Shown piece after piece: positions 24,002 to 29,862 of a DNA stretch of 38,350 nucleotides. Within the stretch, counting starts at the first letter, position 1, and each line of letters begins with the position of its first letter. The translations under genes were made by a program, and so were the position numbers. This DNA is from Bacteroidales bacterium. Lineage in GTDB: Bacteria > Bacteroidota > Bacteroidia > Bacteroidales > UBA12170. Below the pieces are notes generated by a model. It had not been told where the DNA came from. It worked only from the letters and a program-made list of their open reading frames with translations, and did no database searches. The DNA lies in assembly GCA_021158405.1 (NCBI GenBank), contig JAGGUP010000097.1:1-38350 (forward strand), read 5' to 3'.

Positions 24002-25555
24002 ATGAAACAGACAAAAATTCTGTGGGTAGATGATGAAATTGAAATGTTGAAACCCCATATTTTATTTCTCGAACAGAAAGGATATGAAGTTAGAGCTTTA
24101 AATAATGGAATGGACGCTATTGATTTGATTGCTGTTGAACGCTTCGATATCGTTTTTTTAGACGAAAACATGCCCGGATTATCAGGAATAGAAACACTTG
24201 AAAAAATCAAGATAAATCATCCACAATTGCCTGTGGTTATGATTACAAAAAGTGAAGAAGAGTCGATTATGGAGGATGCTATTGGATCTAATATAGCCGA
24301 TTACTTAATCAAACCGGTAAAACCAAATCAAATACTGCTCTCTCTTAAAAAAAATCTGGACACTAAAAAATTAGTTTCCGAAAAAACCATCAGTTCCTAT
24401 CAGCAGGAGTTTAGGAATATTAGTATGGAATTATCGGAAAATCTGAATCATCAAGATTGGATTCGTATATATAAAAATCTGGTACACTGGGAATTGAGTT
24501 TAGATTCTTCTGAAGATGAAAGCATGCTAGAAATTCTCATGCAACAGAAAGAAGAAGCGAATGCCATGTTCGGTAAATATATTAGTCGCAATTATCTCGA
24601 TTGGCAAAAAGAAGGAAATACAGATATTCCTATAATGTCGAATAGGCTTTTAAAAGAAAAAGTGCTTCCTTCCATTGAGAAAGAAAAGCCTCTTTTTCTC
24701 TTTTTGATAGATAATTTACGCTATGATCAATGGAAAAGCATTGAACCTTTGTTGGAGCCTTATTTTTATAACGAGAAGGAAGAACTTTATTATAGTATTT
24801 TGCCAACAGCGACGCAATATGCACGAAATTCTTTGTTTGCCGGAATGATGCCTCTGGACATTCAAAAGCGATTGCCTCACTTGTGGGTAGATGAAAATAA
24901 AACTCCGGGAAAAAATAATTATGAAGAAGATCTTTTAGCGGACTTGTTGTCTCGATATAAAAGGGAGACGTCTTTATCTTATCACAAAGTTTTAAATATG
25001 GACTTTGCAAAACGACTACTCGATAAATTCCCAAATTTATTGAATAAGCAGCTGAATGTAATTGTCTATAATTTTGTTGATATGCTTTCTCATGCCCGCA
25101 CAGATATTGAAATTATAAGAGAACTTGCTGAAGATGAATCTGCTTACAGATCGCTAACGCGCTCATGGTTTGAGCATTCTCCCCTTTTTGATATGCTTAA
25201 GTATCTATCTGAAAAAGGAGTTAATGTGATGATCACCACCGATCATGGATCTATTCGTGTAAAAAATCCGGTTCAGATTGTGGGCGATAAAGCGACGAGT
25301 TCCAACTTACGCTATAAAACCGGAAAAAGTTTGGCCTATAAACCAAAGGAAGTGTTTGAAATTAGAAATCCCCACGAAATAAATCTGCCAAAACAGGAAA
25401 TAAGCTCCAGTTTTATTTTTGCTCGTCAAACAGATTTTTTTGCCTATAAGAATAATTACAATCATTATGCAGCACACTATAAAAACTCATTTCAGCATGG
25501 TGGAATTTCATTAGAGGAAATGCTGATTCCCTTTGTGTTTTTAAAGGCGAGATAA
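24002..25555 (+). CDS. porX: T9SS response regulator PorX (receiver plus PglZ phosphatase domain)
   Basis: A 517-residue two-domain regulator. Residues 1-120 are a CheY-like receiver: acidic pocket D10/D11, phosphoacceptor D54 in IVFLDENMPG, Thr in VVMITKSEE and Lys in YLIKPVKP. Residues about 215-515 are a PglZ alkaline-phosphatase-fold domain with LFLIDNLRYDQW, the nucleophile region LPTATQYARNSLF and the metal ligands ITTDHGS and FQHGGISLEEM. In Bacteroidota this architecture is PorX, which with the kinase PorY controls type IX secretion and has phosphodiesterase activity on oligonucleotides. PorY is not in the window. Downstream lie tsaE and alanine dehydrogenase genes. Confidence 0.94.
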   Translation: MKQTKILWVDDEIEMLKPHILFLEQKGYEVRALNNGMDAIDLIAVERFDIVFLDENMPGLSGIETLEKIKINHPQLPVVMITKSEEESIMEDAIGSNIADYLIKPVKPNQILLSLKKNLDTKKLVSEKTISSYQQEFRNISMELSENLNHQDWIRIYKNLVHWELSLDSSEDESMLEILMQQKEEANAMFGKYISRNYLDWQKEGNTDIPIMSNRLLKEKVLPSIEKEKPLFLFLIDNLRYDQWKSIEPLLEPYFYNEKEELYYSILPTATQYARNSLFAGMMPLDIQKRLPHLWVDENKTPGKNNYEEDLLADLLSRYKRETSLSYHKVLNMDFAKRLLDKFPNLLNKQLNVIVYNFVDMLSHARTDIEIIRELAEDESAYRSLTRSWFEHSPLFDMLKYLSEKGVNVMITTDHGSIRVKNPVQIVGDKATSSNLRYKTGKSLAYKPKEVFEIRNPHEINLPKQEISSSFIFARQTDFFAYKNNYNHYAAHYKNSFQHGGISLEEMLIPFVFLKAR

Positions 25556-28426: not shown

Positions 28427-28531
28427 GCAAAAACGATGGTTTTAACTATCAGATATTTAGCGACATAAAAAATAATCATTAAAAAAGCGATTTTTTTGGG
28501 TAACGTTTTTAGAAAATTAACCATTAATAAA

Positions 28532-29116
28532 GTGGAAAAGAAAAGATATAACGACGAAGAACTGATAGAGGGTTTAAGACAAGGAGACGATAAAATTCTA
28601 AATTTTTTATATAAAAATTATTATGGAATTGTTAGAAGTATGGTTTTAAAAACCTCTGGAAATGAAGATCAAGCGCGAGATATTTTTCAAGAAGTAATTA
28701 TTGTTATTTATAATAAATTACAAAATAATAAATTCAAGATTACAAGTTCTTTCTTTACTTTTTTCTATGCAGTGATGAAAAATACCTGGCTAAATTATAG
28801 AAAAGTCAGTAAAAAGAATCCATTGGGTTTTGCGTATAATTTAAACGATGAAATAAGTTTTGATAAGCATGTAGATGAAATAGAATTGCTTACAACAAGA
28901 GCCTTGCGAAATCAATTATTTATGGCTCATTTTAAACAGTTAACGGTAGGTTGTCAATCAATATTACGGCTTTTTATGACTGATCACAGCGCTGAGGATA
29001 TCGCTTTAAAATTAGATTTGAAAAGTGCGAATTATGTTCGTAAACGCAAATCGAATTGTTTAAGTACTTTGATAGAAAGAATTAGAAAGGACAGTATATT
29101 TAAGGAGTTAATATGA
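28532..29116 (+). CDS. ECF-type RNA polymerase sigma factor
   Basis: A sigma-70 family factor of about 194 residues with only regions 2 and 4. Region 2 (residues about 15-100) contains YNDEELIEGLRQGDDKILN, NEDQARDIFQEV (core-binding face) and the aromatic FFTFFYAVMKNTWLNYRK for promoter melting. Region 4 (about 130-190) has a helix-turn-helix around HSAEDIALKLDLKSANYVRK. There is no ATG before region 2: the GTG at 28532 or a TTG at 28496 must be the start, and GTG gives the N-terminus usual in relatives. The stop overlaps the anti-sigma gene by 4 bases. Confidence 0.85.
   Translation: MEKKRYNDEELIEGLRQGDDKILNFLYKNYYGIVRSMVLKTSGNEDQARDIFQEVIIVIYNKLQNNKFKITSSFFTFFYAVMKNTWLNYRKVSKKNPLGFAYNLNDEISFDKHVDEIELLTTRALRNQLFMAHFKQLTVGCQSILRLFMTDHSAEDIALKLDLKSANYVRKRKSNCLSTLIERIRKDSIFKELI
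29102..29107 (+). promoter_or_regulatory. Shine-Dalgarno site before the anti-sigma gene
   Basis: AAGGAG lies 5 bases before the ATG at 29113, inside the last codons of the sigma gene. Most genes here have no such site, so this strong one may keep the two products at a set ratio. Confidence 0.55.
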
Positions 29117-29862
29117 ATATAGAGCATGAAAAATTAATGTACGCTAAGATTTCTGATGAATTAAATGAGGAAGAACTATTGCGCTTCAATCATTTACTTT
29201 CATCGGATAAAAATTTTCGAAAGGAATATGAAATTCTTAGCCAAATGGTTTCTAGTCTTGGTGATAAAAAGACGATGGATCTCCGAGGTAAATTAGATAA
29301 AATTTATCAGGAAATGTACTTATCCAAAAAGAAAACAAAAATGATACAATTGATAAAAAGAAATTGGTATTCGGTGGCCGCTGCTGCTGCCATATTGGTA
29401 ATGATAGGAACTTTTACGCTTAATCAAATGAGCCAAAAAAGATGGAGCGAAAAACTTTATGAAACCTACTATCAGGAAGATGAGGTATTTGTTAATACAA
29501 GAAGCAGAGCAAATTTTAACGTTGATGTATTGCATCATGGGATGGAACTTCTCGAACAAAAGGATTTCAATGCAGCACTTGCGGAGTTTAATAAGTTGCC
29601 CAATAGTCTTACCGCCAACTACTATGCCGGAGTTGCTAATATGGAATTAAACAACCATGAAATTGCTGTTTTTAAGTTTGATTATGTCATTGAAGATTAT
29701 CTTAACTTATTTTACGACCAAGCACAGTGGTATAAAGGTTTGTGTTTAGTAAAACTTGAGAGAAAAGATGAAGCTATCAATTTATTCGGTCAAATTTCTC
29801 AAACAGAAAGCTATTTTAAAGATAAAGCCAAACAAATTGTAAATGATCTTAAGGAACAATAA
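29113..29862 (+). CDS. Membrane anti-sigma candidate with extracytoplasmic TPR domain
   Basis: A 249-residue single-pass protein. Residues 1-84 are a charged helical cytoplasmic domain of the size of an anti-sigma domain, without the zinc HxxxCxxC signature. The membrane helix is residues about 85-104 (SVAAAAAILVMIGTFTLNQ). Residues 140-245 hold TPR-like repeats (MELLEQKDFNAALAEFNKL, then ANYYAGVANMELNNHEIAVF and AQWYKGLCLVKLERKDEAI), which would face the periplasm. The 4-base overlap with the sigma gene and the topology support regulation of that factor by an envelope signal. This is inference; no anti-sigma family motif is decisive. Confidence 0.7.
   Translation: MNIEHEKLMYAKISDELNEEELLRFNHLLSSDKNFRKEYEILSQMVSSLGDKKTMDLRGKLDKIYQEMYLSKKKTKMIQLIKRNWYSVAAAAAILVMIGTFTLNQMSQKRWSEKLYETYYQEDEVFVNTRSRANFNVDVLHHGMELLEQKDFNAALAEFNKLPNSLTANYYAGVANMELNNHEIAVFKFDYVIEDYLNLFYDQAQWYKGLCLVKLERKDEAINLFGQISQTESYFKDKAKQIVNDLKEQ

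Follow-up and report, generated by a model that had tools for sequence, protein, structure and literature searches.

What does an extracytoplasmic function (ECF) sigma factor gene gain from overlapping a gene for a membrane protein with tetratricopeptide repeats (TPRs)? The two genes lie on contig JAGGUP010000097.1 of a Bacteroidales bacterium (assembly GCA_021158405.1), analyzed here as one stretch of 38,350 nucleotides, which we call the window. The explanation that we favor, with a probability of about 0.55, is that the TPR protein would hold the sigma factor as its anti-sigma factor, that the sigma factor would share a regulon with an operon for a cargo protein sorted by the type IX secretion system (T9SS) and a TPR-CHAT protease, and that the sigma factor would most likely be released by CHAT proteolysis. 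The features of the gene pair are as follows.

28532-29116, forward strand: ECF sigma factor, 194 amino acids, GTG start (Sigma70_r2 and TIGR02937 above their cut-offs; start fixed by relatives)
29102-29107, forward strand: AAGGAG, Shine-Dalgarno-like site of the second gene, within the sigma frame (such a site in 1 of 34 window genes)
29113-29116, forward strand: ATGA, 4 bases shared by both genes (10 of 10 genus members)
29113-29862, forward strand: membrane anti-sigma candidate with a predicted extracytoplasmic TPR domain, 249 amino acids (sequence, family matches and model)
29113-29364, forward strand: candidate sigma-binding domain, helical and predicted cytoplasmic, residues 1-84, free of Cys (AlphaFold2; NF052375 alignment)
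29368-29424, forward strand: single membrane helix, about residues 86-104, several Lys/Arg just ahead of it (sequence)
29521-29859, forward strand: TPR domain, residues 137-249 (AlphaFold2 blocks with a confidence score, pLDDT, of 69-89; Foldseek)

The sigma frame runs from GTG at 28532 to a TGA stop ending at 29116. It was matched by Sigma70_r2 with 26.2 bits (Pfam cut-off 24) and by TIGR02937 sigma70-ECF with 45 (NCBIfam cut-off 42.9; residues 35-195 of a 206-amino-acid frame), and the protein has the sigma-70 regions 2 and 4 and the length of about 190 amino acids that define ECF sigma factors. The Pfam model of sigma region 4 gave no match in the window sigma, though the same search found other ECF genes. 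The GTG start is backed by three genus members (L015, L016 and L017), in which the frame opens there straight behind a stop codon. A longer start, TTG at 28496, was rejected because the frame would cross the promoter described below and because relatives open at the GTG. The sequence-only reading had given correct coordinates for both genes, and its 4-base overlap was found again, the partner ATG at 29113 sharing ATGA with the sigma stop. The strong, GGAG-like Shine-Dalgarno site that it had called rare is indeed so in the window, but AAGGAG was retained in 5 of 10 genus members, compared with 10 of 10 for the overlap. Since AAGGAGTTA doubles as codons for the KEL tail of the sigma factor, the site may be partly incidental.

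The architecture described in the same reading, a zinc-free TPR membrane partner with one hydrophobic helix, was confirmed. A cytoplasmic N-terminus and an extracytoplasmic TPR domain are what the charge distribution predicts. The AlphaFold2 model of the whole partner was built from 3 sequences and had a mean pLDDT of 64. Helices of the N-terminal domain were placed at residues 3-16, 19-31, 33-49 and 54-69 with a mean pLDDT of 66, and a helix at 75-106 covers the membrane segment in a low-confidence part of the model. Foldseek gave the TPR domain of YbgF (2xev, E 1.8e-4) as the best solved structure for the C-terminal TPR domain, which also resembled BamD folds, and Pfam TPR models matched the C-terminal half slightly under their cut-off. 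With zero Cys in residues 1-84, the HxxxCxxC motif of zinc-associated anti-sigma (ZAS) factors is absent. The NCBIfam model NF052375, 'anti-sigma factor', matched residues 15-129 of the window partner with E 5e-5, below its cut-off. It matched 10 of the 25 family members scanned, and two other NCBIfam anti-sigma models matched 4 and 3 of the 25 with low scores. In a profile search of solved structures, no anti-sigma factor was seen among the best 60 rows, which were mostly TPR proteins and designs.

Two distant relatives (L128:3804-5096 and L131:1-1134) combine a TPR ectodomain with an N-terminal domain carrying an H..C..C motif; by sequence, the TPR part is common to versions with and without the zinc motif. 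In another genome, G056, the C-terminal half of the anti-sigma homolog (L132:8490-9170) is not TPR-like, and the cargo gene and two tandem CHAT genes are on another contig (L174).

Comparison of genomes showed that the two genes stay together. The search for homologs of the TPR protein gave a match in 28 of 60 relatives. The sigma gene adjoined the TPR gene in all 9 of the other genus loci whose contig reached upstream, in 13 of 20 order-level loci and in 38 of 40 class-level loci. At the order level there were in addition one fusion and two loci with a sigma gene a few kb away, and no sigma gene was seen in 4 of the 20, of which 3 were cut by contig ends. The class-level set consisted of near-full-length matches picked by query range among the matches listed (TPR-only and N-terminal-only matches left out), 41 loci from 23 genomes, none of which had been used to build the profile; 40 of the 41 were fetched and read (G144:C10 was left out). 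The TPR gene lies directly downstream of its sigma gene, the position expected of a membrane anti-sigma gene. In G050, sigma and anti-sigma form one natural 448-amino-acid open frame with almost no linker (L119:3146-4492); this fused frame may be an assembly error.

Paralogous pairs gave a modest sign of co-divergence. Among the 11 pairs of G060, sigma and anti-sigma distances correlated with r 0.50, a value reached by 38 of 20000 shuffles, and among the 7 pairs of G144 the correlation was weak (r 0.33; 1026 of 20000). The N-terminal domain alone showed no correlation with sigma distances in G144 (6443 of 20000). The module is multiplied in G060 and G144, each about 7 Mb in size: the candidates scored included 12 anti-sigma matches in the former, 9 in the latter and 11 CHAT matches in each genome. 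Kinase-like genes adjoin the anti-sigma gene in four order-level loci (L116, L117, L118 and L122).

It might be argued that the TPR protein is an unrelated membrane protein that happens to be co-transcribed, a reading that fits the weak anti-sigma family matches, all under curated cut-offs, and the N-terminal domain without a structural match. The conserved pairing, the translational overlap, the fusion, the paralog co-divergence and the fact that three anti-sigma models touch the family all speak against it, and we regard it as very unlikely. The same pair conservation, fusion, modest co-divergence and family matches support the earlier proposal of a sigma factor with a zinc-free TPR membrane anti-sigma factor, and the two proteins are very probably a sigma/anti-sigma pair.

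Which genes the sigma factor would serve was approached through its predicted promoter.

28498-28529, forward strand: predicted autoregulatory ECF promoter, with a -35-like GGGTAAC at 28498-28504, a 17-nt spacer and a -10-like CATTAATA at 28522-28529

The pattern GGGTAAC-N17-CATWAATA occurs in genus members ahead of the sigma gene, nearly touching the GTG. Just 2 nt lie between the -10-like box and the GTG, and the sigma mRNA is possibly leaderless. Exactly three perfect copies were found in the source genome. One stands before the sigma gene. Another, on contig C24, precedes the cargo gene, which encodes a secreted protein of 410 amino acids; this protein has a T9SS type A sorting domain (42 bits, cut-off 23) and a segment resembling a dockerin. 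The last (C96:6609-6640, L061, G000) precedes the gene of a small helix-turn-helix (HTH) protein followed by a lipoprotein gene. All three copies have GTTTT behind the -35-like box, which was not part of the search pattern. When one mismatch was allowed, 4 sites were found in the source genome and 0 with the reversed control.

Comparison with relatives showed that the promoter is shared by the sigma and cargo genes. Cargo promoters matching the pattern were also found in G001, G005, G006 and G008. The cargo promoter is GGGTTACGTTTT in G002 and TATTAATAAGTGA in G009, and the sigma promoters of both are closely alike. Sigma and cargo promoters are both GTATTACCTTTT in G015 and G050, and both start with GGGTTACCTTT in G030. 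Over the ten genomes with both promoters readable, sigma-cargo identity was 198/230 compared with a mean of 155.7 when shuffled (198 was reached by 0 of 200000 shuffles), and within the genus it was 144 compared with 127.9 (144 was reached by 4 of 5040 permutations), figures that are indicative and overstate independence, given related genomes and sites picked by eye. On these promoter sequences, it is likely that the sigma gene and the cargo-CHAT operon belong to one regulon.

Several further observations concern the promoter. It also stands ahead of genes for HTH proteins of 66-72 amino acids, followed by a lipoprotein or secreted protein gene, in G005:C182, G003:C150 and G004:C191; the secreted protein in G005 is a C10-family peptidase with a Spi inhibitor domain. 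Just upstream of the promoter-HTH locus on C96 of the source genome lies a gene for an ATP-binding cassette (ABC) exporter with a C39-like start. A perfect match at G001:C187:36577-36608 has no convincing gene downstream. Within the genus, a histidine kinase gene (L060:2667-3509) is divergent from the cargo gene and may be a further part of the module. As a regulon member it was rejected, the promoter being found on the divergent kinase only in G009, and less well in G002, among six genus genomes. Sites with one or two mismatches outside these gene contexts were mostly set aside as likely chance matches.

Directly behind the cargo gene, G008 and G001 encode homologous proteins of about 1070 amino acids, and the G008 protein contains TPRs and a CHAT domain (PF12770, E 2.6e-49). 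The source genome has one CHAT match, whose gene was split by the assembly across contigs C24 and C15, the ends of which repeat the same stretch. Cargo and CHAT genes are also neighbors in G002, G004 and G009, with just the cargo end on the contig in G002 and G004. They are on the same contig in G010, and in G005 the TPR part follows the cargo before the contig ends. Alignment showed the catalytic His and Cys, the mark of caspase-like TPR-CHAT proteases, to be intact in 18 of 18 CHAT proteins. Hydrophobic segments, judged by eye, lie at the N-terminus, where they are signal-peptide-like, and at the C-terminus, which suggests an envelope protein anchored at its C-terminus.

The CHAT gene was also found to cluster with the pair itself. 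Of the anti-sigma loci at the order level, 12 of 30 had a CHAT gene no more than 6 kb away, compared with 0.42 expected, and among the matches listed the same held for 19 of 41 class-level loci, compared with 0.44 expected. Expected counts were Poisson values for genes placed at random. The 30 loci were the non-genus matches of the homolog search; the order-level CHAT list left out fragment matches (several small ones in G057 and one each in G036, G020 and G045), and the class-level list held rows from those 23 genomes only. Cargo, CHAT, sigma and anti-sigma genes are consecutive on one strand in G030, and such a run is listed for L114. In G015 and G050, cargo and CHAT are divergent from sigma and anti-sigma, and elsewhere the CHAT gene faces the pair. 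Varied arrangements with a constant gene set argue for a function. The window locus itself has no CHAT gene nearby, and its link to CHAT is the promoter.

How would the sigma factor be released? Regulated proteolysis acts on classical membrane anti-sigma factors such as RseA and RsiW. The present locus resembles theirs in having a sigma gene followed by the gene of a single-pass anti-sigma candidate, with a predicted cytoplasmic domain at the N-terminus and a predicted autoregulated promoter, but the present partner has no zinc motif and has a TPR ectodomain and a CHAT partner. We propose that the anti-sigma factor holds the sigma factor at the inner membrane, its other half being the TPR domain outside the cytoplasm. 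An envelope signal would let a protease cut the anti-sigma factor and free the sigma factor, which would transcribe both its own operon and that of cargo and CHAT. The cut in the juxtamembrane linker would be made by the CHAT enzyme, with the T9SS-exported protein perhaps as its gate, and the freed sigma factor would make more CHAT protease in a positive feedback. The T9SS-sorted partner in the same operon suggests a signal at or beyond the outer membrane.

For the protease itself, CHAT suggests itself as the natural candidate because, according to PMC10028731, the ECF-like CASP-sigma has an inhibitor, Csx30, that is cut by the TPR-CHAT protein Csx29, and this cleavage was proposed to free the sigma factor. 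In both that system, Craspase, and the present one, a His-Cys TPR-CHAT protease has a genetic link to an ECF-like sigma factor and to its inhibitor, here a candidate (PMC10028731). Craspase, however, is RNA-guided through Cas7-11 (PMC10028731), whereas the present inhibitor would span the membrane and carry a TPR ectodomain, and the present CHAT protein begins with a signal-peptide-like segment and carries a hydrophobic anchor at its C-terminus. CHAT-domain proteins recur near another group of ECF sigma factors, ECF54, for which PMC8999054 describes CHAT proteins in the gene context and no anti-sigma factor; a membrane anti-sigma candidate does adjoin the present sigma gene.

The proteolysis could nevertheless be the work of another enzyme. 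The pair and its regulon would then be real, the TPR-CHAT and T9SS-sorted proteins would be surface or envelope effectors, and a different site-1 protease or a ligand-induced change of shape would free the sigma factor. That cargo and CHAT stand behind a sigma-type promoter, and that many anti-sigma homologs have no CHAT close by, speak for this reading; the presence of CHAT beside the sigma/anti-sigma genes in many genomes and in several arrangements, and the precedent of a sigma inhibitor as the target of a TPR-CHAT protease (PMC10028731), speak against it. We hold this alternative to be rather unlikely, though to be taken seriously. That CHAT acts on this particular anti-sigma factor has, by our analysis, somewhat less than an even chance.

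In a further scheme the TPR domain would bind a partner of the T9SS-exported protein, or the T9SS, and report export status in a FecR-like manner with no cleavage by CHAT. It would suit the T9SS type A sorting domain of the cargo and a TPR domain closest to the YbgF and BamD folds, but a cargo homolog (E < 1e-50) was found on just 3 of 20 order-level stretches, and such surface signalling appears improbable.

For release by CHAT, the linker between membrane helix and TPR domain offers one candidate site.

29500-29502, forward strand: Arg130 in the juxtamembrane, predicted extracytoplasmic linker (VNTR-S), candidate cleavage site (conservation)

Arg130 is the best-conserved linker residue at the order level; the stretch around it varies and was modeled without confidence. 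It was present in 24 of 26 order-level sequences, and the other two have an Arg a few positions off, as judged by eye. Several class-level sequences without Arg130, some of them beside CHAT, have Met-Ser or Met-Gly there. As a universal cleavage site Arg130 was rejected, since it holds at the order level and fails as a rule at the class level; the alignments make it a lead and not a result.

Several observations weigh against the explanation as a whole. CHAT, being in the regulon, could equally be an output. It is not an obligatory neighbor: 18 of 30 loci at the order level, and 22 of 41 at the class level, had no CHAT gene within 6 kb among the matches listed. The cargo and CHAT genes of G006 are on separate contigs, and no promoter copy was found at the CHAT gene. 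The promoter pattern has limited specificity: with two mismatches allowed, the source genome gave 19 sites compared with 30 for the reversed control, and with at most one mismatch, the 11 genus genomes gave 26 compared with 14. By reading, these 26 comprised 8 sigma, 5 cargo, 4 HTH-lipoprotein and 4 lipoprotein sites; behind the remaining 5 no convincing target was seen. Structure searches with residues 1-86 of the partner gave just weak matches to unrelated helical proteins, with a best Z of 3.1. Finally, Arg130 was found in just 20 of 40 class-level sequences and was missing in some that lie beside CHAT.

The sequence-only reading had pointed to a different regulator, PorX, whose gene is in the neighborhood.

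24002-25555, forward strand: porX, positional neighbor, given as context only (NF052313, 802.9 bits)

The gene is, as that reading stated, four genes upstream of the pair. PorX might control the present sigma factor as it binds SigP in P. gingivalis, and the order porX-tsaE-ald-endonuclease beside the pair is kept within the genus. This order is a genus-level neighborhood, however. porX was present in 54 of 60 relatives, whether or not these have the pair, and adjoined the pair only within the genus; on 20 order-level stretches no porX-like match was seen except a weak response regulator, and G008 keeps the module although porX was not found there. A comparison of motifs showed that of SigP in PMC4800418 to be unlike the GGGTAAC promoter, and SigP is not among the sigma factors with a downstream candidate anti-sigma factor listed in the excerpts of PMC7712824. 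The two systems are alike in linking an ECF sigma factor to the T9SS, with porX in the present neighborhood; they differ in that no anti-sigma factor is listed for SigP in these excerpts, in the motif, and in the predicted target, which would here be T9SS-sorted cargo and not T9SS machinery (PMC4800418, PMC7712824). The proposed link between PorX and the sigma factor found no support beyond position, in distribution or in synteny, and was rejected as positional; we consider control by PorX extremely unlikely. The T9SS connection of the pair emerged, from sequence comparison, by another route, the sorted cargo. The more general suggestion that the pair could sense the state of an envelope complex can be made more concrete, as promoter and neighborhood point towards a TPR-CHAT protease of the envelope and a protein sorted by the T9SS.

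In the literature searched, with subscription papers and preprints outside its scope, we found no account of CHAT, T9SS and a sigma factor acting together in Bacteroidetes. We put forward, as a tentative and rather speculative idea, a widespread envelope signalling system of Bacteroidia, in which an anchored TPR-CHAT protease, gated by T9SS export, would cut the linker of the anti-sigma factor and free a sigma factor that makes more protease and cargo. Such a system would be an envelope-facing counterpart of Craspase and possibly its evolutionary relative. The idea is testable at once, since it specifies a predicted promoter, substrate and protease as well as a candidate cut site. If it is true, many CHAT proteins of Bacteroidia would gain a substrate and a purpose, caspase-like proteases would be seen to serve sigma factors as site-1 proteases outside CRISPR, and protein export by the T9SS would be connected to transcription.
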